From NCBI RefSeq assembly GCF_028712165.1, contig NZ_JAQTQR010000013.1:1-43389 (forward strand): DNA of 43,389 nucleotides, read 5' to 3'. The DNA comes from Sulfuricurvum sp. GTDB taxonomy: Bacteria > Campylobacterota > Campylobacteria > Campylobacterales > Sulfurimonadaceae. The position numbers were made by a program, and so were the translations under genes. Shown in pieces: positions 4,180-33,423 of the stretch (positions are counted from its first letter, which is position 1; each line of letters begins with the position of its first letter). The notes under the pieces are model-generated. The model saw only the letters and a program-made list of their open reading frames with translations. It had not been told where the DNA came from and ran no database searches.

Positions 4180-5538
4180 TCATACTTCCCACGGTGCCGG
4201 TTTGCCGACATTGGCAAACACGGGATTGCGGAATGCGTATTTCAGATCTTCCGCAAGGTTGAGTAATCCGTTATAGCCGCCATAACTCGTTTTTTTCTCC
4301 TGATTGACGTCAATAAACGAGATTTTTTTCTTGATCGCGGTATAGAGGCTGCGTCCTCCAGCAAGAAGAATATGGGCTCCTGTCTGATCGATGATTTTCC
4401 CCTGTTCAGAAGCAGGTTTGGTCATCAGCACCCCATTTTCTCCCAGATACTCACGAGCTTTATCGATGTCATCCTGCGTTGATTTTGCGACACTTGTCGC
4501 TACCACTTCAATCCCTAAATCCTGAAGTCCTGAAGCGATCGACCATGCTTTGTTTCCACCGGTATTGAGAACCGCTTTTTTCCCTGCAAACATTGTTCGA
4601 TACGGGATCAAGTTGGCTTCCAACTCCGCTTCGGCTTCGGCGATCACTGCTTCGGCTCGTGCAATGAGTTCCGGATCACCCAAAGCGGTGACGATTTCAC
4701 GAATCGCAAAAGACGTATCGCGCTTTCCGTAAAACGATACCGAAATCCAAGGGATACCGTATTGTTCCTGCATTTTGCGGGTTAACGTGATAAGAGATTT
4801 GGCACACACGATGACATTAAGTTTTGCACGGTGGGCACAGCGGATATCACCGACACGGCCGTCTCCGCTCATCGAACTGAGGACTCGTATACCGATCTTC
4901 TCAAACAGCGGCATATACTGCCACATATCTCCGGTAACATTGTAATCGCCGATCAGATTGATATCATAGGGAGTCGTGAACTCAGGTTCTTTTGTACCGA
5001 TCAAATGCTCTAACACGGCTTCTCCCGCAAGACGCGAGCCTAGGTTCTTACTTCCAACAAATCCCGGAGCGTGAACAGGAACGATAGGTACACCGTGTTT
5101 TTCAGATCCTTTTTTACATGTCATATCCATATCATCACCGACCAATGATGTGACACACGTCGAATAAACAAAAATCGCTTCAGGCTTATAATGCTCCATC
5201 ACATGATCGATCGAATCCGCAAGACGTTTATCTCCGCCAAAGATTACATCATTGGTCGTGATTCCGGTCGTAAATCCCATTTGTGTATGATCTGTTCCCT
5301 TGTACGACGTTTTTGTCTCACGGGTTTCCCAAGATGCTCCCAGACACGTTTGAGGCCCGTGAACCAAATGGACTGCATCGGCATACGGAAAAAGGGATAT
5401 TTGTGCACCATCAAATGCGCATCCCCCGGCAGCTAGCCCCGGTTTGGGCTTATCACACCCTTCTCCGGGTTTTTTGTCTTTACTGTGAGAGCAGGCACTC
5501 TCGTTCATAAGTTCTTTGATTTTAGCTCGGCTTACCAT
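4180..5538 (-). CDS. nifE: NifE, FeMo-cofactor scaffold subunit alpha
   Basis: A 452-residue nitrogenase component 1-type protein, partner of NifN. The three cluster-region cysteines expected by analogy with NifD are present: C40 (GGCAFDGAQ), C65 (HGPQTCLGASWETR) and C128 (YSTCVTSLVGDD). The DINLIGDYNVTGDMW segment (about 210-224) and the SYGGYNGLLNLAEDL C-terminal motif are typical of NifE. Length is normal. The ATG at 5538 has AAGGAG 6 bases upstream. It is convergent with the inserted trpB, whose stop lies 5 bases away, and follows a methyltransferase gene by 60 bases. It may be transcribed alone from a weak sigma-54-like site at 5573-5588 or by read-through from the genes upstream. Confidence 0.95.
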   Translation of the reverse strand: MVSRAKIKELMNESACSHSKDKKPGEGCDKPKPGLAAGGCAFDGAQISLFPYADAVHLVHGPQTCLGASWETRETKTSYKGTDHTQMGFTTGITTNDVIFGGDKRLADSIDHVMEHYKPEAIFVYSTCVTSLVGDDMDMTCKKGSEKHGVPIVPVHAPGFVGSKNLGSRLAGEAVLEHLIGTKEPEFTTPYDINLIGDYNVTGDMWQYMPLFEKIGIRVLSSMSGDGRVGDIRCAHRAKLNVIVCAKSLITLTRKMQEQYGIPWISVSFYGKRDTSFAIREIVTALGDPELIARAEAVIAEAEAELEANLIPYRTMFAGKKAVLNTGGNKAWSIASGLQDLGIEVVATSVAKSTQDDIDKAREYLGENGVLMTKPASEQGKIIDQTGAHILLAGGRSLYTAIKKKISFIDVNQEKKTSYGGYNGLLNLAEDLKYAFRNPVFANVGKPAPWEV

Positions 5539-19169: not shown

Positions 19170-20810
19170 TCAGTAATTATACATCTTCACATAATATTCA
19201 TGCACCATACGACCAGAGTCAAAGGCCGGAATTACATCACTCATCGCACTTTTCATCATCTGGCACCATTGTTCCGGACGATCATAATACATCGGAATGA
19301 TCTCATTTTCGAGAATATCCATCATATTTTTGTTATCCTCACGGTCTTGCACCTCGATCGGAGTACTGTGATCGATCGGCGGAATCGTAAAGGCGTTGAA
19401 TCCGTGTTTGGCAAATTCCGGATGCCATCCGTCATTAGTAGAAAAGTGAATTGAACCGTTCATACTCGCCGTCATACCGCTCGTACCGCTCGCTTCGCGT
19501 GAGACACGCGGTGTATTGAGCCATACGTCAGAACCTTTTTTCAGGATACGGGAGAGTTCCAACTCGTATCCTACGAGTACGGCCATATTTTTGAATCCGT
19601 GGCTGATATAGATAAGTTCATTAAATGCATTAATAGCGTTGGTATCGAAAGGATACGGTTTACCCGCCCAAATGACCTGAATCGGTTTATCGGTACGTTC
19701 CAATAGAGATTTAAAACGGGCAAAATCATGTTTGAGCAGTCCGGGACGTTTGTATTCGGCAAAACGTCGAGCCCACACAATCGTTAAAATATCCGGATCA
19801 AACATTTTACCCGTCTGATCGGCAACTACATTAAACAGGTTGCGTTTGAGATGTTTTTTTCGTCCGATAAGAGCATAGTCTTCATGTTCATCGAGTGCCG
19901 CGAGCATACCGTTGTCCGACCAAAAACGTCTATTCTGGGCATTGGTGATATAAATGATTTCGGAACGTCCTTCACAATTTTGCCACATACGATTGGCAAC
20001 TTCACCGTGTATTTTAGATACGGCATTAGTAATCTTGGAAGAGCGTAACGCTCCTACCGTAAGATTAAAATTATTATCCGTCATATTCATGATGTTACGG
20101 ACGGTACCTAAGTCTAGCCCATTGAAAAAACCGAATTTATGGAGCAATTCTATATTGTGTTGTTCATTGCCCGCATCTTCAGGAGTGTGAGTTGTAAATA
20201 CAACCCGTTTTTTAACCTCATTCATATCCCGATATTTCGCATAAAGTTCATATACTAACGGAAGTGCATGTCCCTCATTCATATGATAAATATCGATCTT
20301 TTGTCTCAATGCTTCGAGGACTTTTACCCCACCGATACCCAATACAACCTCTTGCGATATTCGAGTCTCTTCATTCGCATCATAAAGTTTGTGGGTAATA
20401 GTACGGGCCAAAAAGTCATTTTCGGGAATGTCGGTAGAAAGGAGAATAATAGGTGCGGAGCTGAATACATTGGGCGGCAAATAAAATGCCTTAATAGAGA
20501 CATCCTTGGAATGGATGTTAACGACTGCCTGGACGCCAAGGTCTTCTAGAAAGTAGTAATGTTTTCGGATAAACTCCATCTCCAAACTGCGGTCTTCGTG
20601 TCGGGATTGATCGTAATACCCGAAGCTCCATAATATTCCGATACCAACAACATTTTGACGCAGATCGTAGGCACTTCGCATGTGAGAACCGGACAAAAAT
20701 CCCAGACCCCCTGAATACGTTTTCAGAGCTTGATGAATAGCAAATTCCATAGAAAAGTATGCAACACTGGTAGAGTATTTTGGGTCGATTTCATAATCAT
20801 GGAGTATCAT
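19170..20810 (-). CDS. glgP: Short alpha-glucan phosphorylase-like protein (GT35), PLP lysine replaced
   Basis: A 546-residue member of the alpha-glucan phosphorylase family; such enzymes release glucose 1-phosphate from glycogen using PLP. Family motifs are AYFSMEFAIHQ (17-27), YSGGLGFL (32-39), NEGHA (178-182), FTTHTP (205-210) and WARRFAEYKRP (346-356). The motif that carries the PLP Schiff-base lysine reads EASGTSGMTASMNG (439-452): Thr447 replaces the expected Lys in the GMK position, codon ACG at 19470-19472. The start region also departs from the usual LAGDHLKSASDLG (here LSGSHMRSAYDL). It is shorter than classical GlgP (about 800) and than the archaeal type. It is the last gene of the glycogen operon, 29 bases after glgB. 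It could be a phosphorylase variant or a PLP-independent transferase. Confidence 0.82.
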   Translation of the reverse strand: MILHDYEIDPKYSTSVAYFSMEFAIHQALKTYSGGLGFLSGSHMRSAYDLRQNVVGIGILWSFGYYDQSRHEDRSLEMEFIRKHYYFLEDLGVQAVVNIHSKDVSIKAFYLPPNVFSSAPIILLSTDIPENDFLARTITHKLYDANEETRISQEVVLGIGGVKVLEALRQKIDIYHMNEGHALPLVYELYAKYRDMNEVKKRVVFTTHTPEDAGNEQHNIELLHKFGFFNGLDLGTVRNIMNMTDNNFNLTVGALRSSKITNAVSKIHGEVANRMWQNCEGRSEIIYITNAQNRRFWSDNGMLAALDEHEDYALIGRKKHLKRNLFNVVADQTGKMFDPDILTIVWARRFAEYKRPGLLKHDFARFKSLLERTDKPIQVIWAGKPYPFDTNAINAFNELIYISHGFKNMAVLVGYELELSRILKKGSDVWLNTPRVSREASGTSGMTASMNGSIHFSTNDGWHPEFAKHGFNAFTIPPIDHSTPIEVQDREDNKNMMDILENEIIPMYYDRPEQWCQMMKSAMSDVIPAFDSGRMVHEYYVKMYNY

Positions 20811-20839: not shown

Positions 20840-22789
20840 TTATTGTACCGATTTATCGATCAATTTTTGTTTCAGATACACAACCCCCAGCGGAGGCAAT
20901 GTCATAGAAATAGAGTATTCCCTCCCATGAGTCGAAGCATGAAATGTATGGAGCGGTTCTCTGTTGCCGATATTCCACCCCTCATATAATGAAGATTGGG
21001 AGTTGAATATTTCAACGTATTCCCCCTCTTGCAAAACACCCATATGATAATTTTCACGCGTCGCATCTGCAAAGTTGCAAACAACATAGATGTCATCAGC
21101 CGGATTATCGCTTTTTCGCACGAAGCTTAGACAATTGTGGCTGTAATCACGATCATCAATCCACTCAAATCCCTCTCGCATCACATCATACATATGCAAG
21201 GCGCGCTCATCACGGTAGAGACGGTTGAGATCTGAGACCATTTTGTTCAACCCTTTATGCATCGGGTTATCCAACAAATGCCAATCCAAAGAACGTTCAA
21301 AATTCCATTCGGCGTATTGTGCAATCTCTCCCCCCATAAAGAGGAGCTTTTTCCCCGGATGTGCCGTCATATACGCAAACAGTGTTCTGAGATGGGCAAA
21401 TTTTTGGTTGGCATCTCCCGGCATTTTATTGATAAGAGAGCCTTTCATGTGAACGACCTCATCATGGCTCAGAGGAAGCATAAAGTTTTCATCAAACCCG
21501 TACCACATACTAAACGTCAGTTGGTGATGGTGGTGCTGACGATGAATCGGATCATAACTCATGTATTTGAGCGAATCGTGCATCCACCCCATGTTCCATT
21601 TGAAACCGAAACCCAATCCCCCGATATCCACCGGACGGGTTACCATCGGATAGGCGGTCGATTCCTCGGCAATCATCATAATATCACTAAACTCGCCGTA
21701 TACGCTGACATTGAGTTTTTTCAAAAACTCTATCGCTTCGAGATTTTCATTCCCGCCGTATTCATTAGGGATCCACTCACCCTCTTTTCTCGCATAGTTG
21801 AGATACAGCATCGAGGCAACGGCATCAACGCGAATGCCGTCTATATGGTATTTATCGAGCCAGAACATCGCCGAACTGATCAAAAAAGACTGTACTTCAT
21901 TACGACCGTAATTAAAAATGATGCTTCCCCACTCCGGATGAAATCCCTGACGCGGGTCGTCATGCTCATAAAGTGCCGTACCGTCAAAATTGATCAATCC
22001 GTGCATATCAACTGCAAAATGTGACGGAACCCAGTCCATGATCACGCCGATATCGTTTTCATGCAGGGCATCGATGAGAAACATAAGATCCTGAGGTGTC
22101 CCGTAACGCGCCGTAGCGGCGAAATACCCGACAACCTGATACCCCCATGAACCGTCATAGGGATACTCGCTCAGCGGCATAAACTCGACATGGGTGTAGT
22201 TCATCTCTTTCAAATAATTCACAAGCTCGATAGAGAGTTCCCGATACGTCAAAGGACGGTTATCTTCCTCTACCTTTCTGCGCCATGACCCCAGATGCAT
22301 CTCATACACACTGATTGGGGCATCGTGCGCATTGCTCAGATGACGATCCCGCATCCAATGCTGATCTTTCCAGTCATACCCTTCCAGACTCCAGACACGA
22401 GAGGCCGATTTAGGCGGCTGTTCGCTGTAAAATGCAAACGGATCGCTTTTATCGTGAACAATGTTATGGAATTTGGAAACAATATGATATTTGTAGGTGA
22501 GTCCCTGCTCTACGCCCTCAATAAAACCTTCCCAGATTCCCGATTCATCGCCTCGTAGCTGCAGAGGATGAGACGAAGTGTCATAATGGTTAAAATCTCC
22601 CCTTACGCTGACATACGATGCGTTTGGAGCCCATACGGCAAAATAAATACCTGCTTTTCCCTCATGCTCCATTGCATGGGCACCAAGCTTATCGTAGAGC
22701 TTTGTATGCGTCCCTTGTTTAAAGAGATAGATATCCATCTCACTCAATCTGGACATATTGTAATTTATGGGGTGATCTTGGTTATTCAT
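20840..22789 (-). CDS. glgB: 1,4-alpha-glucan branching enzyme
   Basis: A 649-residue GH13 enzyme that makes alpha-1,6 branches in glycogen. An N-terminal CBM48 domain is visible (GIYFAVWAPNASYVSVRGDF, about 47-66), followed by the catalytic barrel: GVIMDWVPSHF, the nucleophile Asp in GIRVDAVASML, the acid/base Glu in MIAEESTAYP, and the transition-state Asp in PLSHDEVVH. The C-terminal beta domain ends with PPLGVVYLK. Length is normal. The ATG overlaps the end of glgA by 4 bases, giving translational coupling, and GAGG precedes it. It sits between glgA and glgP in the operon, as expected for a complete glycogen pathway. Confidence 0.96.
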   Translation of the reverse strand: MNNQDHPINYNMSRLSEMDIYLFKQGTHTKLYDKLGAHAMEHEGKAGIYFAVWAPNASYVSVRGDFNHYDTSSHPLQLRGDESGIWEGFIEGVEQGLTYKYHIVSKFHNIVHDKSDPFAFYSEQPPKSASRVWSLEGYDWKDQHWMRDRHLSNAHDAPISVYEMHLGSWRRKVEEDNRPLTYRELSIELVNYLKEMNYTHVEFMPLSEYPYDGSWGYQVVGYFAATARYGTPQDLMFLIDALHENDIGVIMDWVPSHFAVDMHGLINFDGTALYEHDDPRQGFHPEWGSIIFNYGRNEVQSFLISSAMFWLDKYHIDGIRVDAVASMLYLNYARKEGEWIPNEYGGNENLEAIEFLKKLNVSVYGEFSDIMMIAEESTAYPMVTRPVDIGGLGFGFKWNMGWMHDSLKYMSYDPIHRQHHHHQLTFSMWYGFDENFMLPLSHDEVVHMKGSLINKMPGDANQKFAHLRTLFAYMTAHPGKKLLFMGGEIAQYAEWNFERSLDWHLLDNPMHKGLNKMVSDLNRLYRDERALHMYDVMREGFEWIDDRDYSHNCLSFVRKSDNPADDIYVVCNFADATRENYHMGVLQEGEYVEIFNSQSSLYEGWNIGNREPLHTFHASTHGREYSISMTLPPLGVVYLKQKLIDKSVQ

Positions 22790-24258
22790 TGCCCTCTTCT
22801 CCCATTTGAAATCTTGTAGTACAGCGCTTCGTATTCGAGTGCGGAACCATTCCAGTCAAAACGCTTACTCATAGCATTTTTCTGCATTTGTTCAAATCCT
22901 ATACGATCATTGTACCATGTATGAACCGCCCATCCGACAGTATTCACAAGCGCATCGGACGAAGCGTCGTAAAATTTGAACCCAGTGCCGTGCATTTGGT
23001 CGTTTTGATAGTTTTCGATCGTATCGTCTAACCCGCCGGTAGCGCGTACGATCGGAAGAGTCCCGTATCGAAGACTGTATATCTGATTCAAACCGCACGG
23101 TTCAAACAAAGAGGGCATTAAAAACATATCGCTGCCTGCTTCGATTTGGTGTGCGAGATCATTTCGATATCCGATAAAGCAGCCGAATTTATCGGGGTGT
23201 TTATGGGCGATATCGCTGAAATAATGCTCTGCCCACTTCTCTCCGGCACCGAGCATCACAATCTGAATATCCATTTCCAAAAGTTTCCAGATCGCATGCG
23301 CCAGAAGTTCAATCCCTTTTTGCTCTGCAAGCCGACCGACCAATCCGATCAAAGGAACATCGGCTCTTTTAGGCAAATGAAATGTTTCCTGTAAGGCATC
23401 TTTACAGAGCGCTTTACCGCTCATATCCTCTGCATCAAACGTTTGTGCGATAAATGAATCCTCAGCTGGGCTCCATTCTTGATAATCGATTCCGTTGAGT
23501 ATCCCGTAGAGTTTATACGATAGATGATCGATCAGGCTCTCTAAACCCCAGCCAAATTCCGAGGTACGGATCTCGTCGGCGTATTTTCGGCTGACGGTAG
23601 TGATGGCATCTGCATGAATAATCCCCCCTTTGAGGAGATTGACCCCATCGTACTCTTCAAGCTCATAGAAATGATTCCAGCCGATTCCGAGGACATCCAT
23701 CAGCCCCTTATAAAATCTCCCCTGATGCTGAAGGTTGTGGATCGTAAGCAAAGAACCCGTAAAAGCAAAATCCGGATCGTAGGTATACAGTGTGTTAAGC
23801 ATCACAGGAAGCGCAGCCGTATGCCAATCATTGGCATGAATCACATCGGGATGAAAACGGAGCATTTTGGAGAGCTGCATCACGGCACGGGAAAAAAAGA
23901 TAAACCGGTTGTCGTTATCGTTAAAACTGAATCCATCCTCTTCATAGAGCCCTTTTCGTCCAAAATATCCCTCATGCTCGATAAAATAGACGGGAACATC
24001 GCTCCCCGGCAATAGACCCTCATAAACCGAGGCCCACTCTTCACCCATAATCCCCATCGGTACCCCGAGAGAACCTTCCATCGGCGTAAGAGCGTATTTT
24101 TCCCGATCTACGATATAGTACCGCGGCATCACGACCCGAACATCATGTCCCAAAGCACGAAGCGCTTTCGGCAGTGCTCCTACCACATCCGCCAAACCGC
24201 CTGTTTTGGCAAACGGCACTACTTCAGATGCAGCGATCAAAATGTTAAGTTTATTCAT
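22786..24258 (-). CDS. glgA: Glycogen synthase, copy 1
   Basis: A 490-residue GT5 glycogen synthase that extends alpha-1,4-glucan from ADP- or UDP-glucose. The N-domain sugar-nucleotide motif is KTGGLADVVGALPKAL (about 18-33). HANDWHTA is at about 143-150. The C-domain has GRLAEQKGIEL with the Arg and Lys of the phosphate site, and FEPCGLNQIYSLRYGTLPIVRATGGL with the catalytic Glu. All key residues look intact. A TTG codon at 24261 precedes the ATG; the ATG at 24258 is chosen because AAGGA lies 5 bases upstream. The 4-base overlap with glgB and the 47-base gap from the second glgA place it in the operon. It is the more canonical of the two synthases. Confidence 0.95.
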   Translation of the reverse strand: MNKLNILIAASEVVPFAKTGGLADVVGALPKALRALGHDVRVVMPRYYIVDREKYALTPMEGSLGVPMGIMGEEWASVYEGLLPGSDVPVYFIEHEGYFGRKGLYEEDGFSFNDNDNRFIFFSRAVMQLSKMLRFHPDVIHANDWHTAALPVMLNTLYTYDPDFAFTGSLLTIHNLQHQGRFYKGLMDVLGIGWNHFYELEEYDGVNLLKGGIIHADAITTVSRKYADEIRTSEFGWGLESLIDHLSYKLYGILNGIDYQEWSPAEDSFIAQTFDAEDMSGKALCKDALQETFHLPKRADVPLIGLVGRLAEQKGIELLAHAIWKLLEMDIQIVMLGAGEKWAEHYFSDIAHKHPDKFGCFIGYRNDLAHQIEAGSDMFLMPSLFEPCGLNQIYSLRYGTLPIVRATGGLDDTIENYQNDQMHGTGFKFYDASSDALVNTVGWAVHTWYNDRIGFEQMQKNAMSKRFDWNGSALEYEALYYKISNGRRGQ

Positions 24259-24305
24259 CAATTTCCTTTTAACGCACTCATATCACTATCAATTATAAAG
24301 TTTTT

Positions 24306-25727
24306 TTACTTCGATATACTCTCATAGAGACGACTGTAGATTTTTGCACTCTCAGACCAGGAAAAATCACATCCCATGTTGTGGTTGGCAATCTCGTCGA
24401 ATCTCTTTTTATCGACATAGAGCTCACATGCTTTTTGTACCGCTGCGTACAGAGCGCGGGTGGTAGGAGAGTTAAAGACGATTCCGTAGCCCGCAGAACT
24501 CCCCTCTTTGTAGTTTTCAAATTTTTTCACGGTATCGGCCAATCCTCCGACACGATGAACAACCGGCAATGATCCGTACGCAAACGCAATCATTTGATTC
24601 AGTCCGCACGGCTCAAACAATGAGGGCATCAGGAGAAAATCGCTTGCTGCATACATGCGATGCGATAACGCTTCATCATACCCCATATACAGACTGACAT
24701 TCTTATAACTCTGCGTAATAGCATTCAAAGCCGTATGGTACTCTTCTTCACCATCTCCTAAAATGGCAATATTGCATTCCAAAGCTGCCATTTTCGGAAG
24801 CGTTTCGATGAGCAGATCGATCCCTTTTTGTCCGGTAAAACGTCCTATAAAAACAAAAAGCGATTTCGTGGCCCCTTTGAGACCAAAGTGTTTGAGAATA
24901 TCACTTTTAGAAGCTTTCTTCCCTTTGACATTTTTATACGTACTGACCAGTGCAGTGTCGCTCATAGGTGAAAAATGCTCTGAATCGATTCCGTTGAGAA
25001 TCCCTTGAAGCTTAGGCCGATGAAACTCTATGAAGCCTTCCAACCCGCACCCGAATTCATGCGTTAAAATCTCTTTGGCATAATTTGGACTGACCGTCGT
25101 GATAGTATCCGAATACGCGATACCCGCTTTCATGAAATTGACTTTACCATGGAATTCTAGTGCATCCATGGTCATATAGCCGCTATTTATCCCTATCTGT
25201 CCCAAAACATCCGCTTCAAAAATCCCTTGATATGCCAAATTATGGATGGTATAAAGCGTTTTAGTCGGTATCGTCGGATCTTCGCGTATGAGTAATGCAG
25301 CCAATGCACACTGCCAGTCATTGAGATGAAGGATATCGTAATGTTCACTTCGGATCAATGCAGCGAGGACATGTGAAAACAGTCCAAAGCGCAACGCATT
25401 GTCTTCATAACCGCACTCAGGAGGACCGTAGAGAAAATCACGTTCGCACAGCAGCGGAGCATACACAAAACGGTACTCTACCCCCTCGAACAAACATCCG
25501 TATATCTCTATCGTATACTCTACTCCACCCATCTCAATGTTAAAGGGTTCATTCAAAAGAGTGATATCATATTTATCTCGATCAATCGACCGGTACAGAG
25601 GCAGTACGACATGAACATCATACCGACCGCATAACGCTTTTGGAAGACTATGCGCTACATCCGCCAATCCTCCGGTCTTTGCAAATGGATATACCTCGCT
25701 CGCCGCGAACAACACTCTTTTAGCCAT
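24306..25727 (-). CDS. glgA: Glycogen synthase, copy 2 (divergent)
   Basis: A 473-residue GT5 glycogen/starch synthase paralogous to the next gene. It has KTGGLADVAHSLPKAL (about 17-32), LHLNDWQCALAA, GRFTGQKGIDL and FEPCGLNQ. In the motif after the catalytic Glu, the usual RYGTLPIVR...GGL reads AYGSLPVVHRVGGL, so the Arg of RYGT is lost. This suggests a changed donor or acceptor preference rather than a broken enzyme. The ATG has GAGGAGA upstream and overlaps galT by 8 bases. Paired synthases in one operon could divide elongation and priming, or use ADP-glucose and UDP-glucose respectively; the sequence alone does not decide. Confidence 0.93.
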   Translation of the reverse strand: MAKRVLFAASEVYPFAKTGGLADVAHSLPKALCGRYDVHVVLPLYRSIDRDKYDITLLNEPFNIEMGGVEYTIEIYGCLFEGVEYRFVYAPLLCERDFLYGPPECGYEDNALRFGLFSHVLAALIRSEHYDILHLNDWQCALAALLIREDPTIPTKTLYTIHNLAYQGIFEADVLGQIGINSGYMTMDALEFHGKVNFMKAGIAYSDTITTVSPNYAKEILTHEFGCGLEGFIEFHRPKLQGILNGIDSEHFSPMSDTALVSTYKNVKGKKASKSDILKHFGLKGATKSLFVFIGRFTGQKGIDLLIETLPKMAALECNIAILGDGEEEYHTALNAITQSYKNVSLYMGYDEALSHRMYAASDFLLMPSLFEPCGLNQMIAFAYGSLPVVHRVGGLADTVKKFENYKEGSSAGYGIVFNSPTTRALYAAVQKACELYVDKKRFDEIANHNMGCDFSWSESAKIYSRLYESISK

Positions 25728-26724
25728 GATTATCTCCTCGTAAAAGTTTTGCTGCCAATTCCGGTTCCACCGGATTGATCATCATATCGGTATTGATTTC
25801 AAATCCGCCGAATCTGTAAAGTCTGGGCATGATCCGGACAATCAGACGATGTGCATCACATAAGTGTGACTCATCCCCTAACGGCGGTGTTGAAACCCAG
25901 AGGTTAAAGGCAAATTTATTTAACTGTATTGATAGTTTCTGCATAACCGAAACAAGCAATGATGCAAGCTCATCCAAATGTTCATCACTTACCGTATCAA
26001 TCTGACCGACACATTTTTTCGATCCGATCATAACCTCGAAAGGATAACTGCTGGCAAAGGGACAAAAAGCATTGAAATCACCGCGTTTATCGATCATCCG
26101 TATCTCAGCATCCTCTTCATCGCTTATGATGGATTCCATCATTGAGCGATTATGGTTATACATATACTCACGGCTTCGACGATAAAAATCGCGCTGCGAT
26201 TTTGGCACGAGAGGCAAGCCGATCAGCTGTGTGTGGCAATGGCTTTGGGTGGAACCGGCATCATAACCTTCATTTTTAAACAGTGAAATGAAGGTGATAC
26301 GGTGATCACGCCGTAAATCATCAACCCTCTCTCGAAGTGTTCTAAGCCAAGAGAGCATGTCATGATGGTTCCATTGGGTCATTGAACGATAATGAACCGG
26401 AGTATCGATAATAACCTCATGCGCACCGAATCCGTCCCAATACTCAAAAGCTCCATTATGATGCTGATGGGGCACTTCGATCGCTACAGCCTTATAGAGA
26501 TTGGGAACGACCCGAGTCTGCCAGCCTGGATGATTGCTGAGACTATCATTTTCACGTATAGCGTAAATTTCTTTGGGAGTCATCGCTTCATTTCCATCGC
26601 AGAAGGGGCATTCCGACTCTAATGATACCGATGTCTCCTCACGCGTGTTATCAGGGCGCTGAAGACGTTCGGGAGCAATAATGACATGGGAATCGTGCAA
26701 ACGATCATAGCGAATTTCAGACAC
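25720..26724 (-). CDS. galT: Galactose-1-phosphate uridylyltransferase family protein
   Basis: A 334-residue HIT-superfamily nucleotidyltransferase. The active site reads HCHTQ (162-166; the family pattern is HPHxQ, with the second His as nucleophile), preceded by NEGYDAGSTQS. A zinc-type CPFC is at 39-42, and an H-E-V-I-I-D-T-P strand at 102-109. Lengths fit GalT (about 330-350). The GTG start has GGAGAT upstream. It overlaps glgA2 and the GH57 gene on either side. No galK or galE is nearby, so the role may be exchange of NMP between NDP-glucose and hexose 1-phosphates, or ADP-glucose phosphorylase-type activity, within glycogen metabolism rather than galactose use. That is inference from context. 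Confidence 0.86.
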   Translation of the reverse strand: MSEIRYDRLHDSHVIIAPERLQRPDNTREETSVSLESECPFCDGNEAMTPKEIYAIRENDSLSNHPGWQTRVVPNLYKAVAIEVPHQHHNGAFEYWDGFGAHEVIIDTPVHYRSMTQWNHHDMLSWLRTLRERVDDLRRDHRITFISLFKNEGYDAGSTQSHCHTQLIGLPLVPKSQRDFYRRSREYMYNHNRSMMESIISDEEDAEIRMIDKRGDFNAFCPFASSYPFEVMIGSKKCVGQIDTVSDEHLDELASLLVSVMQKLSIQLNKFAFNLWVSTPPLGDESHLCDAHRLIVRIMPRLYRFGGFEINTDMMINPVEPELAAKLLRGDNHG

Positions 26725-28747
26725 GCGTTATCTCCAGTGTACCTACAACGTTTAGTGAGGATTCAAAATCAAAAATAAACGCGATACTGAGACCTTGAAC
26801 ACTCAAATCAAATCCCTGCTCGCTTTGAGAGAGCGTTTGAAGCTGAAAATAGTGTGCACTAAAAACTCTGTCTGTACGGAAGGTGATTTTTTTCTTTAAT
26901 ACGGTGTCAATGATCTCAACGCTTTGGATACCTTCGAGCGTTCCGTTTTCCTCCAGTGATATGCCGTTGATACGAAGTTTGTCATAATCGGAAAAATGGA
27001 GATTATGTTCCATTACGTAGTTAAATTTCCCTGAAGCCTCACTCTCCAATAGGATTGAAAAATCGATCGTATCCGCACCGAAAGAAAAGTTCTTAGTCAG
27101 TTTTGTGTTTGCTTTTCCCTCGCTGTAGACTCCGCCGTTTCGCTCAAATGTAAGGCTATTCTTGCCCATTGAGGACTCAAAAGGCTGATTCGCAAAATCA
27201 CCGTATTCACGGAAATTACAATGACGAAACGATTCAGCGTTAAAACTATCGTCACTGATATGATCGATAAACGAATTTTTCAAATACCAATCATAGATAA
27301 TGGCATCTCGAAGCGAATCATCGAACGAACCGCTTGCATGGTGGATCGTATCGATTCCCTCTTCAATCGGAGCCGATTTTTCACGCGGAGCCTCAAACAA
27401 CCTTTTGTGGTATGCCTCTTTACGTCTGGTCAAAGTGTTTTGATAATTGAAACACTTGTCGCGAATATCGAGTTCTACAAGCTGTCCTCCGTGCGCTGCA
27501 TCAAAACGGGCAATCAGTTTGGAGGATACCGACTTGTATTTAGGATAACCGTCGAGTTCATTGGTGTCACTCACCAATGCTTTTTTCTTGCCATAACGGA
27601 TATTTTCACACTCTATGACATACGTATAAGCGTTGTCTCTCAAGTTAGGAAGATAGAGTCCTCCGAATACTCCATGCCAGAGCGAATCATTCGTTTGGGC
27701 TTTGTGCAAAGGAAGTTCAAAATCTCCTTCGCCTGCATGAAACGCGCGAGAGAGTTCGATAGTTCGTTTGTGCAATCGGTTGGATTCGGGATATTTAACA
27801 AAAAAGTTTTTCCACGTTCCCCCTTTGAGGAACTTTACCCCTTCGCGCTCGTAGCGCTCCAGTCCCATCTCCTCTTTCAATGCTTCAAGGGCCAGCGCAT
27901 CATCGGCTTTTAGACTCCATTCACCCATTTCATAATACGAAACATTCGGCAGATAGGCAATGCCGCGAGGATGGTGAGAATTAAAATACTCTCCGTAATG
28001 ACGTGTTTCAATGGACTCATCGGCTAGAACCGTTTGGACAAATTTTTCCAGCCACCCTTTTTCATAGACCCACTCATGCGTTCCGGGCCACATTCCGAAT
28101 TTTTCCGCATCATCAAATATGATTGCTGCCGAATCGTTTTCGCGGTTATACGATTTGATTGCACGAATCGCACTATCGACGTTTAAAAACGGTATCGCAT
28201 AGCGGAGTTTTTGGCTGATCGGGAACAGTCCCATCGGAACTCCCCCCTCTTCACTCATATAATAGCCGTCCAACACCTCTTTATCAAATCCGGCACATTG
28301 AAAATGGTAATCATCCATAACCGTATAGTTGATCCCTGCACGGTTCAGATCGGGGATCAAAGCGGACTCCCATACCCGTTCGGTAAGCCATAGCCCCTGA
28401 GGGACTTGTGAAAATCGCTCTGCAATCGAATCGTTCAACCGTCCTATCTGTGCAACCCGATCACGTGATGGGATAACGCTCAAAATCGGTTCATAATATC
28501 CTGCACTGAAAAACTCAATGCTTCCTTTTTTCGCAAGCATTACAATTTTCTCATACAGTGTGGGGCGCAACTGTTCTATCCGCTCCATCAGCCAGCCGCT
28601 GCAATGGACCGAAAATTTAAATTCGGGATATCGGCTCATCACCTCGAAAAACGGTTCATAGCACGTTTTTATTCCCAGTTCGATAACCCAGTCAAAATTA
28701 TCCACAGGCTGATGCATATGGATTCCAAACAGCAGTGATGTCTTCAT
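26717..28747 (-). CDS. GH57 4-alpha-glucanotransferase/alpha-amylase
   Basis: A 676-residue GH57 enzyme close in layout to the Thermococcus litoralis 4-alpha-glucanotransferase. It opens with LLFGIHMHQPVDNFDWV (5-21). The nucleophile is E123 in GLWLTERVWE and the acid/base is Asp212/213 in FDDAEKFGMWPGTHE (211-225). A C-terminal beta-sandwich (about 390-676) matches the domain found in that subfamily. It rearranges or disproportionates alpha-1,4-glucans. The ATG has AGGAG upstream, and the stop overlaps galT by 8 bases. No signal peptide is visible, so it acts in the cytoplasm, consistent with glycogen turnover rather than extracellular starch use. It is one of two GH57 genes in tandem; they are not close paralogues. 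Confidence 0.92.
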   Translation of the reverse strand: MKTSLLFGIHMHQPVDNFDWVIELGIKTCYEPFFEVMSRYPEFKFSVHCSGWLMERIEQLRPTLYEKIVMLAKKGSIEFFSAGYYEPILSVIPSRDRVAQIGRLNDSIAERFSQVPQGLWLTERVWESALIPDLNRAGINYTVMDDYHFQCAGFDKEVLDGYYMSEEGGVPMGLFPISQKLRYAIPFLNVDSAIRAIKSYNRENDSAAIIFDDAEKFGMWPGTHEWVYEKGWLEKFVQTVLADESIETRHYGEYFNSHHPRGIAYLPNVSYYEMGEWSLKADDALALEALKEEMGLERYEREGVKFLKGGTWKNFFVKYPESNRLHKRTIELSRAFHAGEGDFELPLHKAQTNDSLWHGVFGGLYLPNLRDNAYTYVIECENIRYGKKKALVSDTNELDGYPKYKSVSSKLIARFDAAHGGQLVELDIRDKCFNYQNTLTRRKEAYHKRLFEAPREKSAPIEEGIDTIHHASGSFDDSLRDAIIYDWYLKNSFIDHISDDSFNAESFRHCNFREYGDFANQPFESSMGKNSLTFERNGGVYSEGKANTKLTKNFSFGADTIDFSILLESEASGKFNYVMEHNLHFSDYDKLRINGISLEENGTLEGIQSVEIIDTVLKKKITFRTDRVFSAHYFQLQTLSQSEQGFDLSVQGLSIAFIFDFESSLNVVGTLEITRV

Positions 28748-28755
28748 ACTTTCTC

Positions 28756-30747
28756 CTATATAAACCAGTCGTTTGTAAAGTGATCATCCAGCTCAAGCAA
28801 TAAGAAACCGTTTGCCGGCATCGTCTGGATAACTGTATCTTCCTGGAGCAATTCAAACCGCAAATGCAATGTCCTATTCGAACTAAAAAACTCGCGAGAG
28901 AGTGCAAATTCCAAACGGTTTCGAACGGCCTTCGGATCTAGTATTATACGCTGCTGTGTTTCTTGAATGATTACAGCAACGTGCATTTCACGTGTACCGA
29001 TAATCATTCCTACCAATGACACGTAAAAGGAAGTATCGTCATAACCATAGTAAATAATATCAATAGGTCCGCGAACGCGATCCATCGTCGAAAAGCCGCC
29101 GCGTTCATCGATTACACCGCTTCCGACCCATGCGAAAAAGGGGCTGTTCGGATTGCCGATTACCGGGGAAATCAGATTATGCGGTTTACGGGTTGTAGGT
29201 TTTGCTGCGGCATTTGAAATAATACTATCCCATAAATGCGATGGTATCTCCCTACCCATCAAACGATAAATCTGGATCAGATGTTCTCGAAACAGTGCAT
29301 CGAACTCTAATGAAAACTCCGTAAAATGATCTTCACCGTACCACCAAAACCAGTCGCTGCACTCCGATGCCAAAAGATGGTATCGAATCTCTTCCGTTAC
29401 TTTGTTATTCAGTCCATACTCTTCTACAGCTCGACGCGTCTCGAAGATCAGTTCCCATGCCCGATTTTTTTCAGGATGCCCTACCCATGTATCAAAGGTT
29501 CCGTGTATCCAGCTTCCGGGAGTGATATGATCTAAAACTGTAATCTTGGATTCCTGTGACACTTCATCCATCGTTACGGTTTTACACCATTGAGTAGCCG
29601 AAAGAGCACCATACAGTCCATTGAAAAAATCCAATCCGTTATTGGGATAGAATTCCCATGCATTTTCTCCGTCCACTATGACAGAAATATAGGGATTTTT
29701 TTCTCGCAGAGCAATCTGATGAAGAGCTTCCATAAAGTGCTCTCCTGCTCTCAAACCTTCCATATGACGATACTCAAATCCGATCAGATCACTCAGTCCA
29801 TGGTCGCGAAAAGCAATGGCAACGTCATCGTATTTATAAGGTTTAAAATGAGACGACGCTGAATTATTTTGAAGAGTGCGATGTAAGATTGCTTCATCCG
29901 TGGCAATCCATTGTATCCCATATTCTTTGTAAAGAGCGATACTTTTCTCATCGACTGCACCTTCAGCCGGCCAAAAACCGCTTGGTTTGCGCTGAAAAAC
30001 ACTTTCGTATAATGCGATAGAACGTACCACATGTTCGCGTGCATCGTCCATCAAAGAATAAGCGCTTGCAGGTAACTGTGTTGCCGCATTGGCACGTGAG
30101 CCGTTTTCCATATCGATCAATAGCGGCAGTATCGGATGAAAATAGGGAGTCGTTGAAACGGATATAATCCCTTTACGCTGTAAATCGGCATAAAACGGCA
30201 ATATCTCCCGGACAAAACCGCTCAGTGTATCAAGCAACTCTTTTTTATCCGCTTGCGTGTAACCTTGTTGTTTTAAAAACAACGCTTTGACAAAATCATT
30301 TTGGGTACGCAGATAATGTCCGCACCAAGCGAGGAAAAACACCACTTCCAAATCAAGAAGTTCTTCATCCGAAAAAGTTTCCTGATAATACAGTCCACTA
30401 TAGCGCTCTATCGGACGTACCATCGTCTCATATTGCGTTGAGGTGCAGAGTTTAACGATCCACTCTCGCTCAGTATCACTTAATTCAGCAGGATGCTTAA
30501 CCCATAATGAAAGAAAAGCATCATGTTTTAAAGGTTCTCTGTAAAGAAGCATCTGTTCGATCAACGAAGCGCTGAGATTAAATGTTGCCTTGAGACCCGG
30601 ATGGAGGCTCATCAGCCACGGCATTTCATAATAATCTTTAATGGCGTGCAAAAATACCCACGGCATTTTCATAACCCCGTCACTTCCCCTGTAATCGGGC
30701 TGGTGCATGTGCCAGAAAAAAGAGAGGTGTAAGGTTATTTTCTCCAT
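28756..30747 (-). CDS. GH57 alpha-amylase/amylopullulanase-like glycosidase
   Basis: A 663-residue GH57 protein. It starts with LSFFWHMHQPDYRG (8-21), which has the conserved HQP. The nucleophile is E262 in GFWPAEGAVDEKS, and the acid/base is D359 in VIVDGENAWEFYP, matching the amylopullulanase/uncharacterised-amylase branch of the family rather than the 4-alpha-glucanotransferase branch. A C-terminal region (about 500-663) is likely a beta domain. No signal peptide is seen. The start overlaps the stop of the fusion gene upstream by one base, and the ribosome site is GGAG at 8 bases. It likely trims or debranches alpha-glucan, and no GlgX-type debranching enzyme is present in the operon. Exact specificity is uncertain. 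Confidence 0.9.
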   Translation of the reverse strand: MEKITLHLSFFWHMHQPDYRGSDGVMKMPWVFLHAIKDYYEMPWLMSLHPGLKATFNLSASLIEQMLLYREPLKHDAFLSLWVKHPAELSDTEREWIVKLCTSTQYETMVRPIERYSGLYYQETFSDEELLDLEVVFFLAWCGHYLRTQNDFVKALFLKQQGYTQADKKELLDTLSGFVREILPFYADLQRKGIISVSTTPYFHPILPLLIDMENGSRANAATQLPASAYSLMDDAREHVVRSIALYESVFQRKPSGFWPAEGAVDEKSIALYKEYGIQWIATDEAILHRTLQNNSASSHFKPYKYDDVAIAFRDHGLSDLIGFEYRHMEGLRAGEHFMEALHQIALREKNPYISVIVDGENAWEFYPNNGLDFFNGLYGALSATQWCKTVTMDEVSQESKITVLDHITPGSWIHGTFDTWVGHPEKNRAWELIFETRRAVEEYGLNNKVTEEIRYHLLASECSDWFWWYGEDHFTEFSLEFDALFREHLIQIYRLMGREIPSHLWDSIISNAAAKPTTRKPHNLISPVIGNPNSPFFAWVGSGVIDERGGFSTMDRVRGPIDIIYYGYDDTSFYVSLVGMIIGTREMHVAVIIQETQQRIILDPKAVRNRLEFALSREFFSSNRTLHLRFELLQEDTVIQTMPANGFLLLELDDHFTNDWFI

Positions 30748-33254
30748 TACGATTTACTCCACTCCTCTATTTTAGAGGTATACAGTTTTGTATAATACTC
30801 ACCTTTTTCATCAGTAGCCGCTTGTATTGTCAGGTTCAAAGAATTATTGTATTGATCCGGAATCATCAGAACCCAATCATCGGTATCAAACCAAATTTTT
30901 ACTCCATCGAGAGTAGAAGATTCTTTCCCTTTTGAATCTTCCAGGAACTTACGCATCATTTTTCCTTTTAATGCCTGAGTACACGGAAGCTGAATCGTTG
31001 CATAGTAAAAATGAGGCAATGATTTGATGATCTCGGAAAGCTTCACGCCATGAGTAACGATCATCTCTAAGATTTTCAGTGTGGCATACATCGAATCTCT
31101 ATGGGTCGCAAATTCGGTAAAGGTAAAGTTCCCCTCACCGGTAGCAACCAAATCATACGTCTTCATTTTCGACGCTTTAAAATTCGCGTATTGTCCACGT
31201 TCAATCTCAAGTTGATCGAAGTAAACGATATCCGCTGCCCAGGTCGGAAGGAAAACCCTCTTCTTCTCTCCCGAAGCTTTTGCATCCATATTGAGCAAAC
31301 TGAGTACGACATACAATGAAGTCTGTTTGGTAAGCAATACCCCCTCATCACTGATAATATCAAGACGCTGTCCATGAGGGAAAAGGACAAAACCTGCATC
31401 CAGACGAAGTGCTCGGATTACAGCACCCATATCCTCATAGGAGCGTTTCGCCGTATTATTGATATTTGCAAGTCGTTGTTCATCTTCATAGGCATTGAAC
31501 ATAATATGTTCGACATTTAAGTCATTTAATATAGTCGGAAAGACTTCAGATGCCAAGCCGTGCATTACATCCACTGCAATACGGCAATCAAGACATTTAA
31601 ATCGATGCGATTGCAATATACTTTCTATCCCTTTTTTATATTCATGGTATTCTCGTTTGTGGTCGAGAGGAAATATTTGCCCGATTTGAGTGTAATCAAC
31701 ACGACGAAACGTCTCTTTGAAAAATGCTTTTTCCACTTTTTTTGCTACATCATTATTGATGCGGAGGGCTTCATTGTTATAAAACGTAATCACGGTACTC
31801 GTAGGATCATCGAGTTTTTGATTGAAATGGACTCCGGCAGTATAGTTCTCATGAAACGAAAGACTGCAACGCATGACAGCTGAAGGGATTGCATTATAGT
31901 CGACGACATCGACTCCGGAGGATAGCAAACCTCCTAAAAATGCCCGTTTGAGCATTCGTGAACTTTTATCGTAGTGGCGTGAGACAAGCACGGTAGAACC
32001 GATAGGAAGCTGTGCTCCAAAGGATTCAGCCAGTTTGGTGGCCATTTCGCAGGAGAGTTCTACGTTGGATTTTCCGATAACCATTCCATCTTCAAAAATA
32101 GAATTTTTATATTTGTTTCCTAAAATAAGACTTCGGCTGACTATAGCGGCATCTTCGATCATTTTGTTCGGCCAGATAGTGACGTCTTTTTCTATCGTGA
32201 CCAACACTCCTATTTCACACCCCTCTGCCAAGATCAATCCCGATTTTGCGGTAACATTTTTACCGATCTTATTATGATTGCAAATAACGCATCCATCCAG
32301 ATTGGCATTTTTACCGATCTCAACATCGTCCCAAATAACGCTATTTCGAATTTTGCACCCTGAGCCGATCGTTACATTGTTTCCGATAACAACATTATTC
32401 AGTTTTGCACCGTGCTTGATTGTTACATCGTTTCCAAGCACGACAATCCCGACAATCTCGACACTCTCATCGATATTGAAATCCTCTTCATGGATCAATA
32501 CACCGTCAGGATATTTGATTGCTTCGCCACCCAGCTCAAATTTAATTTTACCGCTTAAAATATCTTCATACACATCACGATAACTTTCCGGATTTCCGAC
32601 ATCACGCCAATACCCTTGAGCATGTCCGGCCATCAAATCGATCCCCTTACGCATCAGAAGCGGAAACAGATCTTTCGCAAAATCGAAATTTTCATTTTTT
32701 GGAATATAGTCTAAGATTTCAGGCTCGATGATATAAATTCCGGTGTTGATCGTATCACTGAACACTTCTCCCCAGCTCGGCTTTTCGAGGAATTTTTCTA
32801 TTTTTCCCTCTTCATTCGCGATAACGACACCAAACTCCAACGGATTTTCAACCGATGTGAGTGTAATGGTCAGTTTTGACTTTTTCTCTTCATGATAATC
32901 AAAGATTTTCTGAAAATCAAAATCGGTTACCAAATCTCCGCTGATAATAATAAAGTTTTCGTCTCCGATGTATTCTTGAGCCTTTTTAACCGCACCGGCT
33001 GTACCGTAATCATCATCCGGCACTACATACGTGATCTTAATACCCCATTTACTTCCGTCTTGGAAATAATCTTTGATAACTTCAGGTTTAAAATATAGGA
33101 GGATTATGAACTCTTTGATTCCCAAATTCCGCAAACTCACTATAGTATGTTCCATCATTGGTCGATTCATAATCGGTAACATCGGTTTAGGGATAGAGTT
33201 TGTAAGTGGCTGGATACGTGTACCGAATCCGCCTGCCATAACCACAGCTTTCAT
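30747..33254 (-). CDS. Sugar-1-phosphate nucleotidyltransferase fused to degenerate phosphomannomutase domain
   Basis: An 835-residue three-part protein, start ATG 33254 (AAGGA 6 bases upstream; the frame is open further but without a site). Part 1 (1-240) is a nucleotidyltransferase with GGFGTRIQPLT (8-18), KPML, ISGDLVTDFDF (104-114) and EKPSWG. Part 2 (about 250-380) is a left-handed beta-helix of hexapeptides. Part 3 (400-835) has the phosphoglucomutase/phosphomannomutase fold, but all four active-site loops are lost: the TASHNP serine loop reads FNQKLDDP (477-484), DGDGDR reads FPHGQR (625-630), GExSGH reads GEGNFT (706-711) and the phosphate loop RPSGTEP reads IPDQYNN (798-804). It heads the glycogen operon, probably supplying NDP-glucose; GDP-mannose is the alternative. 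Confidence 0.9.
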   Translation of the reverse strand: MKAVVMAGGFGTRIQPLTNSIPKPMLPIMNRPMMEHTIVSLRNLGIKEFIILLYFKPEVIKDYFQDGSKWGIKITYVVPDDDYGTAGAVKKAQEYIGDENFIIISGDLVTDFDFQKIFDYHEEKKSKLTITLTSVENPLEFGVVIANEEGKIEKFLEKPSWGEVFSDTINTGIYIIEPEILDYIPKNENFDFAKDLFPLLMRKGIDLMAGHAQGYWRDVGNPESYRDVYEDILSGKIKFELGGEAIKYPDGVLIHEEDFNIDESVEIVGIVVLGNDVTIKHGAKLNNVVIGNNVTIGSGCKIRNSVIWDDVEIGKNANLDGCVICNHNKIGKNVTAKSGLILAEGCEIGVLVTIEKDVTIWPNKMIEDAAIVSRSLILGNKYKNSIFEDGMVIGKSNVELSCEMATKLAESFGAQLPIGSTVLVSRHYDKSSRMLKRAFLGGLLSSGVDVVDYNAIPSAVMRCSLSFHENYTAGVHFNQKLDDPTSTVITFYNNEALRINNDVAKKVEKAFFKETFRRVDYTQIGQIFPLDHKREYHEYKKGIESILQSHRFKCLDCRIAVDVMHGLASEVFPTILNDLNVEHIMFNAYEDEQRLANINNTAKRSYEDMGAVIRALRLDAGFVLFPHGQRLDIISDEGVLLTKQTSLYVVLSLLNMDAKASGEKKRVFLPTWAADIVYFDQLEIERGQYANFKASKMKTYDLVATGEGNFTFTEFATHRDSMYATLKILEMIVTHGVKLSEIIKSLPHFYYATIQLPCTQALKGKMMRKFLEDSKGKESSTLDGVKIWFDTDDWVLMIPDQYNNSLNLTIQAATDEKGEYYTKLYTSKIEEWSKS

Positions 33255-33281
33255 AAGAGTCCTTCGTGCGTAAAGTAGTCT

Positions 33282-33308
33282 GTTCAGCCAATACTCTATT
33301 AACTGAAC
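33282..33308 (-). promoter_or_regulatory. Potential 12-base-pair RNA hairpin in the glycogen operon leader
   Basis: Read as minus-strand RNA, the left arm GUUCAGUUAAUA and the right arm UAUUGGCUGAAC pair fully around a GAG triloop. Ten pairs are Watson-Crick and two are U-G. On the opposite strand those two pairs would be C-A mismatches. It lies 28 bases before the fusion gene ATG and is not followed by a U-run, so it is not a terminator. Candidate roles are translation control, an RNase site or a protein-binding site. Confidence 0.5.
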
Positions 33309-33423
33309 CATATTTAGTCTTCAATATTAACGTGTTGAGTTAAACTTTTGATACTAATGTTTAATCATAACATACGTTCGACACAAATTATTACATTATT
33401 ATCACTGAACTATCTCAGAACCG

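Follow-up and report, generated by a model that had tools for sequence, protein, structure and literature searches.

Can an alpha-glucan phosphorylase do without the lysine that holds its cofactor, and if so, what fills the place of that cofactor? This question is raised by a gene in a 43,389-nucleotide stretch of Sulfuricurvum sp. DNA (RefSeq assembly GCF_028712165.1, contig NZ_JAQTQR010000013.1; hereafter, the window), whose product is a member of family GT35 with threonine at the position of the Schiff-base lysine for pyridoxal 5'-phosphate (PLP). A 2015 review gives GT35 as the only phosphorylases that require PLP (PMC4336185), and in phosphorylases, according to a further source (PMC11046441), basic residues hold the PLP phosphate, which exchanges a proton with the substrate phosphate. 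The GT35 entries consulted in a review table from 2022 include no enzyme from Campylobacterota, Bacteroidota or Verrucomicrobiota (PMC8950772). A search of an open-access literature collection yielded no description of the clade reported here or of its substitution. Throughout, we refer to the clade without the PLP lysine as T-type and to GT35 proteins with lysine at the place of residue 447 as Lys-type.

Sequence sets

Residues were compared in an alignment of 126 T-type, 57 Lys-type and 3 canonical rows, with the window's own gene outside the 126; a further alignment (A2) combined the window gene with 56 of the 80 loci L033-L112. Clade members were sought with two search patterns, neither of which contained residue 447. 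Four loci (L025, L028, L029 and L030) fell outside the first motif pattern and were read as T-type by alignment, and one (L128, genome G104), in which the gene is broken by stops and the type could not be assigned, was excluded from residue counts. Genome counts were drawn from genome tables or from tallies and rows over cut-off.

A threonine in place of the PLP lysine

The gene and the codon in question are located as follows.

19170-20810, minus strand: GT35-like protein of 546 aa, T-type (without the PLP lysine); intact open reading frame, TIGR02094 score 436.3 bits, AlphaFold mean pLDDT 92.3
19470-19472, minus strand: codon of Thr447, in the position of the PLP lysine, from the sequence and alignments

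The TIGR02094 score (alpha-glucan family phosphorylase) lies well over the cut-off of 191.7, the PF00343 match reaches 50.5 against a cut-off of 27, and the predicted fold is a GT-B fold of the GT35 type; the product is thus a GT35 protein by sequence family and fold, with Thr447 instead of the Schiff-base lysine. The codon, ACG at 19472..19470, lies within REASGTSGMTASMNG and gives the motif EASGTSGMT inside an intact frame, as the sequence-only reading of the window had reported. That reading had allowed for a sequencing error, AAG being one base away. We reject this explanation, because a second T-type copy in the source genome, 83% identical, likewise has Thr at 447, and because clade members use ACN, AGY, TCN and GCN codons at this place and are all read without Lys. 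No third GT35 gene was found in the source genome, where PF00343 gives two matches and the four TIGR02094 matches are pieces of both genes. Thr447 is real and is a trait of the clade.

Extent of the clade

A match was obtained in 34 of 60 genomes searched as relatives, 36 of the 60 coming from the same genus, and the first 32 loci, among which the window's gene appears twice and the source genome's other copy once, all have Thr, Ser or Ala at residue 447. Scanning with the clade alignment, at one genome per species, confirmed at least 589 related stretches (of 590); the best 80 of these were kept and all 80 have Thr or Ser, so that the clade is present in at least 80 species of the collection scanned. 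Thr or Ser is also found in all 50 loci picked by score pattern alone from genome surveys, which partly repeat the scan loci. Once identical sequences had been merged, the residue was Thr in 116, Ser in 49, Ala in 4 and Lys in none of 169 distinct T-type proteins, the window's included, and Lys in 61 of 61 other GT35 proteins, whether Lys-type or canonical. The alignment of homologues that the sequence-only reading had called for separates the two groups completely, and its deduction that a classical PLP Schiff base is impossible at residue 447 is supported. Outside the 169, G547 and the second T-type copy of G571 both carry Thr447, together with a clade-specific lysine, Lys424.

The same reading had guessed at a clade of short phosphorylase-like proteins in Campylobacterota and Bacteroidota. 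The clade exists and is large, and both phyla were correctly named, with Verrucomicrobiota and some records labelled Pseudomonadota to be added; shortness, however, fails as a cause or marker of the substitution, because the short GT35 proteins L184, L185, L191, L251 and L252 keep Lys. These five represent a class of about 570-615 aa that retains the PLP lysine, and a short Lys-keeping protein on a Methylophaga plasmid lies near GlgX. The scan matches listed bear Campylobacterota, Bacteroidota and Verrucomicrobiota labels and a few Pseudomonadota ones (Halopseudomonas, Sphingomonadales and Beijerinckiaceae), of which the Sphingomonadales and Beijerinckiaceae records may be mislabelled assemblies.

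The T-type gene of a Runella rosea plasmid record (L190) is annotated glgP, and a pyridoxamine 5'-phosphate oxidase family protein starts 30 bases after it. Matches to the T-type protein were returned for 365 plasmid records, 257 of them from Klebsiella and 269 conjugative; among the 40 shown, most enterobacterial rows are annotated as glycogen or maltodextrin phosphorylase.

Selection and phylogeny

The dN/dS set comprised 15 genes: a single gene for each of 14 members of the genus, the source genome included, and the second copy of the source genome. dS was unsaturated in 29 of 105 pairs, and the median dN/dS of these was 0.041; the T-type gene is therefore under strong purifying selection where tested. 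In a tree of 55 GT35 proteins the T-type sequences form one side of a branch with a support of 100 (SH-aLRT). When rooted with GT5 and GT3, they form one group beside Lys-type TIGR02094 proteins, with canonical phosphorylases outside and a support of 91 for T-type plus Lys-type. A single loss of the PLP lysine is the simplest history. The root is uncertain, because long branches meet and the alignment to GT5 and GT3 is weak, so that a PLP-free ancestral state is also conceivable.

Residues kept and residues changed

The alignment places four segments of the window protein in functional context.

19473-19499, minus strand: REASGTSGM loop, residues 438-446, with clade-specific Arg438 and the GT-B catalytic-site Glu439
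19539-19571, minus strand: GYELELSRILK, residues 414-424, with clade-specific Gly414, Glu416, Ser420 and Lys424; GY....S recalls the GT5 adenine site
19746-19769, minus strand: RRFAEYKR phosphate-binding motif, residues 348-355, kept
20685-20711, minus strand: GGLG loop and Ser42 (Asp in Lys-type), residues 34-42

Arg349, Lys354, Glu439, Gly442, Thr443, Asn262, Asn290 and His208 are invariant in every row of the alignment, whether T-type, Lys-type or canonical, as is His181 save for one gap, and the RRxxxYK phosphate motif, the GTSGM loop and the catalytic Glu do not vary within the T-type clade. The Arg/Lys phosphate site and catalytic Glu of GT35 (Arg349, Lys354 and Glu439) are accordingly present in 126 of 126 T-type rows, while Arg348 is common to T-type and Lys-type proteins and is Lys in the three canonical rows. 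The early observation that the NEGHA, THTP and RRFAEYKR motifs are retained is confirmed (NEGH, THTP and RRFAEYKR are present), and the altered LAGDH motif that accompanied it proves to be a clade trait, residue 42 being Ser in 125 of 126 T-type rows (one gap) versus Asp in 56 of 57 Lys-type rows (one gap).

This pattern bears on the suggestion, also made from the sequence, that the protein could be a non-catalytic regulator that binds alpha-glucans. A residue essential in the family has indeed been lost; however, the other catalytic residues are invariant over all aligned rows, residue 447 is confined to Thr or Ser in 165 of 169 proteins, and the T-type protein stands in for phosphorylase in many genomes. 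Given these unvarying catalytic residues and the low dN/dS, we regard a regulatory role as highly improbable.

Besides Ser42, the clade-specific residues comprise Trp61 (mostly Tyr in Lys-type), Gln292 (Val or Ile otherwise), Gly414 (120 of 126 T-type rows; Asn or Asp otherwise), Glu416, Ser420 (mostly Ala otherwise) and Arg438 (mostly Met or Leu otherwise). Lys30 had been considered as a GT5-like signature of the clade and was dropped, since the Lys-type protein L192 has Lys30 too. Lys424 is the mirror image of residue 447: it is found in 169 of 169 T-type proteins versus 0 of 61 other GT35 proteins, which mostly have Val or Ile. Such a residue invites the idea that the protein is still a PLP enzyme, holding the cofactor non-covalently or through another lysine, of which Lys424 would be an example, and the retained phosphate motifs agree with it. 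In the model, however, Lys424 lies near the far end of helix 417-426, and it should be out of reach, because the general layout of the fold implies that ligand-side residues sit at the helix start. The residues likely to face the PLP ring, judging by their inferred nearness to it, have also changed (Asp/Asn414 to Gly, Tyr61 to Trp). Retention of PLP by such means has, in our judgement, little chance of being correct.

A different explanation is suggested by the GY....S pattern at residues 414-420, which occurs in 119 of 126 T-type rows versus 0 of 60 other GT35 rows. It matches Gly354, Tyr355 and Ser360 of E. coli glycogen synthase, which touch adenine (PMC6210743). The vacated PLP slot might accordingly bind a nucleotide, with nucleotide chemistry regained; glucan would then receive glucose from UDP- or ADP-glucose, or give glucose up to a nucleotide. 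Against this, T-type proteins keep Arg348, a position held by Ser or Gly in three GT5 rows. The adenine-contact residues also vary within GT5: the Ser360 position is Ala in one of these three rows, which makes Ser420 a weak marker.

Structure and known systems

Structural comparison gives a similarly divided answer on nucleotide use. The predicted model superposes with similar quality on the GT5 synthases 2qzs (Z 31.9, 3.1 A, 440 residues aligned) and 6gne (Z 31.9, 2.8 A, 452 aligned) and on E. coli MalP 1qm5 (Z 32.5, 2.4 A, 533 aligned); such a near tie may occur throughout the family. The nearest fold remains a GT35 enzyme, the Segatella copri glycogen phosphorylase 9l6i (Z 35.6, 2.2 A, 533 aligned, 31% identity).

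The latter is a Lys-type Bacteroidota enzyme with the motif EASGTSGEK. Lys-type TIGR02094 proteins such as this share the fold and the RRxxxYK, EASGTSG, HTP and NEGH motifs with the T-type clade, but they have Lys at the PLP place, Asp42, mostly Tyr61, Asp or Asn414 and mostly Met or Leu438, and, short forms excepted, they are usually 150-360 residues longer (open frames of 698-910 aa). Canonical phosphorylases (E. coli MalP and GlgP; TIGR02093) have the catalytic Glu, the Arg-Lys phosphate site and the GT-B fold in common with T-type proteins, and differ in bearing PLP on a lysine (Lys646 in MalP), in being about 250-270 residues longer and in lying outside T-type and TIGR02094 in the tree. 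GT5 GlgA resembles the T-type protein in size and fold, and its GY loop recalls that of T-type proteins; it differs at the Arg348 place, as noted, and in its KTGGL motif, which is absent from 14 T-type rows, where the residues read are Lys, one residue, Tyr, Ser or Ala, and then GGLG (longer than KTGG by two residues). At E 0.001 the window protein does not match TIGR02095 (GT5 GlgA), and no TIGR02095 match over cut-off was seen among T-type members, where weak matches such as E 6e-12 occur.

The GT4 retaining trehalose phosphorylases provide a further comparison. They are GT-B phosphorylases that carry the RX4K motif (PMC12018205), and, GT35 being described as the only PLP-requiring phosphorylase family, they function without PLP. 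They belong to another family and act on another substrate; an RX4K sequence can also be read in the T-type protein (Arg349...Lys354).

GT35 complement of host genomes

The T-type is the only kind of GT35 in most of the carriers surveyed, namely 28 of the 38 in Campylobacterota, 23 of the 24 in Bacteroidota and all 11 in Verrucomicrobiota. Of 298 genomes of Campylobacterota, TIGR02094 matches 44 and GlgA exceeds its cut-off in 44, the two coinciding in 43; the two exceptions are G104, with a broken GT35 gene and no GlgA, and G040, with GlgA and no GT35. The T-type occurs alone in 28 genomes, both types in 10 and the Lys-type alone in 5, and GlgA carriers have a Lys-type gene in 10 of 38 cases with a T-type gene versus 5 of 6 without one (Fisher p 0.013).

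Of 198 Bacteroidota genomes, 24 have a T-type gene, and a second GT35 type was seen only in the survey centre G362, which had been chosen for carrying both; the motif at residue 447 was read in all 23 T-only genomes, G547 among them. A match of Lys-type or canonical score pattern is present in 146 of the remaining 174. In Verrucomicrobiota, 94 of 96 genomes have a GT35 match and 11 have a T-type gene, with another GT35 in none of the 11; here the motif was read in 10 carriers and, through L099, in the centre G377. With the survey centres left out and kinship ignored, T-type exclusivity gives Fisher p values of 3e-16 (Bacteroidota) and 7e-12 (Verrucomicrobiota), and it partly reflects a few ancestral events. 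A second GT35 of another type was present in five of the 41 genomes with scan matches: G348, G362, G371, G347 (as fragments) and G372 (canonical-like). The PLP-independent glucan transferase proposed in the sequence-only reading may yet apply; the genome evidence points to a phosphorylase role rather than a new activity. Against a phosphorylase role, 10 of 38 Campylobacterota T-type genomes also carry a Lys-type GT35, one of them in the same cluster, so that the two types may do different jobs.

Gene neighbourhoods

The T-type gene of the window follows a run of glycogen genes, identified by profile matches.

20840-22789, minus strand: glycogen branching enzyme GlgB, whose gene stops 29 bases before the T-type gene
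22786-25727, minus strand: two different GT5 glycogen synthases (GlgA) in tandem
26717-30747, minus strand: two GH57 proteins, one with 4-alpha-glucanotransferase-type C-terminal domains
30747-33311, minus strand: fusion of a sugar nucleotidyltransferase and a phosphosugar mutase, 854 aa, in the glycogen cluster

Along the direction of transcription, the order is nucleotidyltransferase/mutase fusion, two GH57, a GalT-like protein, two GlgA, GlgB, T-type and a GGDEF protein. Elsewhere in the window, positions 4180-5538 encode a nitrogenase component 1 type protein (PF00148). The second copy lies in a locus that reads PGM - T-type - Pta - AckA, which is a catabolic order, and the cluster of G053 that holds both types reads Lys-type - PGM - PGI - T-type - nucleotidyltransferase/mutase - GH57 - GH57 - GalT-like - ROK - GlgA - GlgB.

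Neighbours were tallied on either strand over 56 of 57 Campylobacterota loci (L036 left out and the window's locus included, many of the surrounding windows being 4.6 kb), with labels taken from local BLAST matches for which two PGM and two ROK references were pooled. GlgB and a ROK-family kinase were found at 14 loci each, the nucleotidyltransferase fusion and PGM at 11 each, PGI at 9 and PFK at 7. The kinase, of glucokinase type, stands directly upstream of the T-type gene at 11 of the 56, and in L022 (1435-3996) the two are fused into a ROK/GT35 protein of 854 aa. Such an association would fit the release of free glucose, and hence an enzyme that moves glucosyl units between glucan chains, or liberates glucose, without phosphate. 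PGM and PGI are common nearby too, however, and glucose would also come from the GH57 glucanotransferases that some of these clusters encode; we consider phosphate-free action very unlikely. In Bacteroidota, no glycogen gene was seen as a common T-type neighbour, and this context tells little because neighbours were judged by eye from sequence starts.

Glucan synthesis in T-type hosts

The nucleotide explanation can also be weighed against the synthetic genes of the hosts. In seven of 20 closely examined T-type genomes, one of them a 1.3-Mb assembly, no GT3 synthase and no GT5 GlgA above cut-off was seen, which leaves room for a synthetic role in some hosts and counts against the phosphorylase reading favoured below; these genomes may use the GlgE route, or the T-type protein may itself be synthetic there. 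The 20 were drawn from the 41 genomes with scan matches; 12 of them have no full-length GlgA match, GT3 synthase occurs in 5, all among the 12, and GlgB is over cut-off in 13. On the other side, GlgA is already present in 38 of 38 Campylobacterota T-type carriers and, over cut-off, in 22 of the 41 other genomes, and GlgC over cut-off is absent from 36 of 36 Campylobacterota genomes searched (31 T-type carriers and 5 with the Lys-type alone) and present in 13 of 26 others, the remaining 13 having none. ADP-glucose is therefore not the general donor, and strict dependence on it is disfavoured, GlgC lying below cut-off in half or more of the hosts searched. The trait common to the hosts seems to be a glucan and not one nucleotide donor. 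Taken with the residues and the fold, these counts lead us to regard nucleotide-dependent transfer as unlikely.

Several further features of these genomes were recorded. A GlgC-like match falls in an open reading frame of 831-861 aa in 34 of the 36 Campylobacterota genomes, with standard GlgC in none, and the nucleotidyltransferase/mutase fusion may supply GlgA with its nucleotide sugar. In many GlgA-bearing Campylobacterota genomes, a pair of GlgA matches over cut-off lies close together. In 24 of the 41 T-type genomes (L043-L106), an open reading frame of 259-312 aa (382 in one case) has a match confined to the N-terminal half of GT5 glycogen synthase.

A proposed phosphorylase without Schiff-base PLP

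The reading we favour, and to which we give an even chance, is that the T-type protein is an active alpha-glucan phosphorylase without Schiff-base PLP, in which a free anion or a nucleotide replaces the cofactor phosphate. The reaction would be that of alpha-1,4-glucan and phosphate to glucose 1-phosphate. Arg348 and the GTSG loop, which we take from phosphorylase structures to be the anion site that normally receives the PLP phosphate, could be filled by freely bound phosphate or by the phosphate of a nucleotide. Thr/Ser447 and Arg438 would occupy the space vacated by PLP, and the attacking phosphate would be held by Arg349 and Lys354, in the manner of the GT4 trehalose phosphorylases, which have no PLP. 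Those enzymes are a precedent for a free anion in the slot, and so is phosphorylase reconstituted with pyridoxal, on which phosphate analogues reportedly act according to a study of 1977.

A free anion, a nucleotide and PLP held otherwise are all fillings of the slot that fit the data. Gly414, Glu416, Arg438, Gln292 and Trp61 amount to more change than the bare loss of PLP needs, and part of this change resembles nucleotide-using GT5 enzymes, which counts against the favoured phosphorylase. We also put forward, tentatively and at somewhat less than an even chance, a broader history in which covalent PLP was discarded once, the slot came to take freely exchanging phosphate or an adenine nucleotide, and the PLP-free phosphorylase took over from the classical enzyme across much of Bacteroidota, Verrucomicrobiota and Campylobacterota.

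Conclusions

A clade filed as glycogen phosphorylase, with one member annotated as glgP, cannot hold PLP in the classical way. Its hosts, most of which, among those surveyed, have no other GT35, may break down glycogen by an undescribed route. If the putative T-type enzyme works, many soil, marine and gut bacteria would depend on it to break down their glycogen, and the clade would provide a natural test of the job of PLP in phosphorylase and of whether PLP replaced a nucleotide in the GT-B-type fold of that enzyme.
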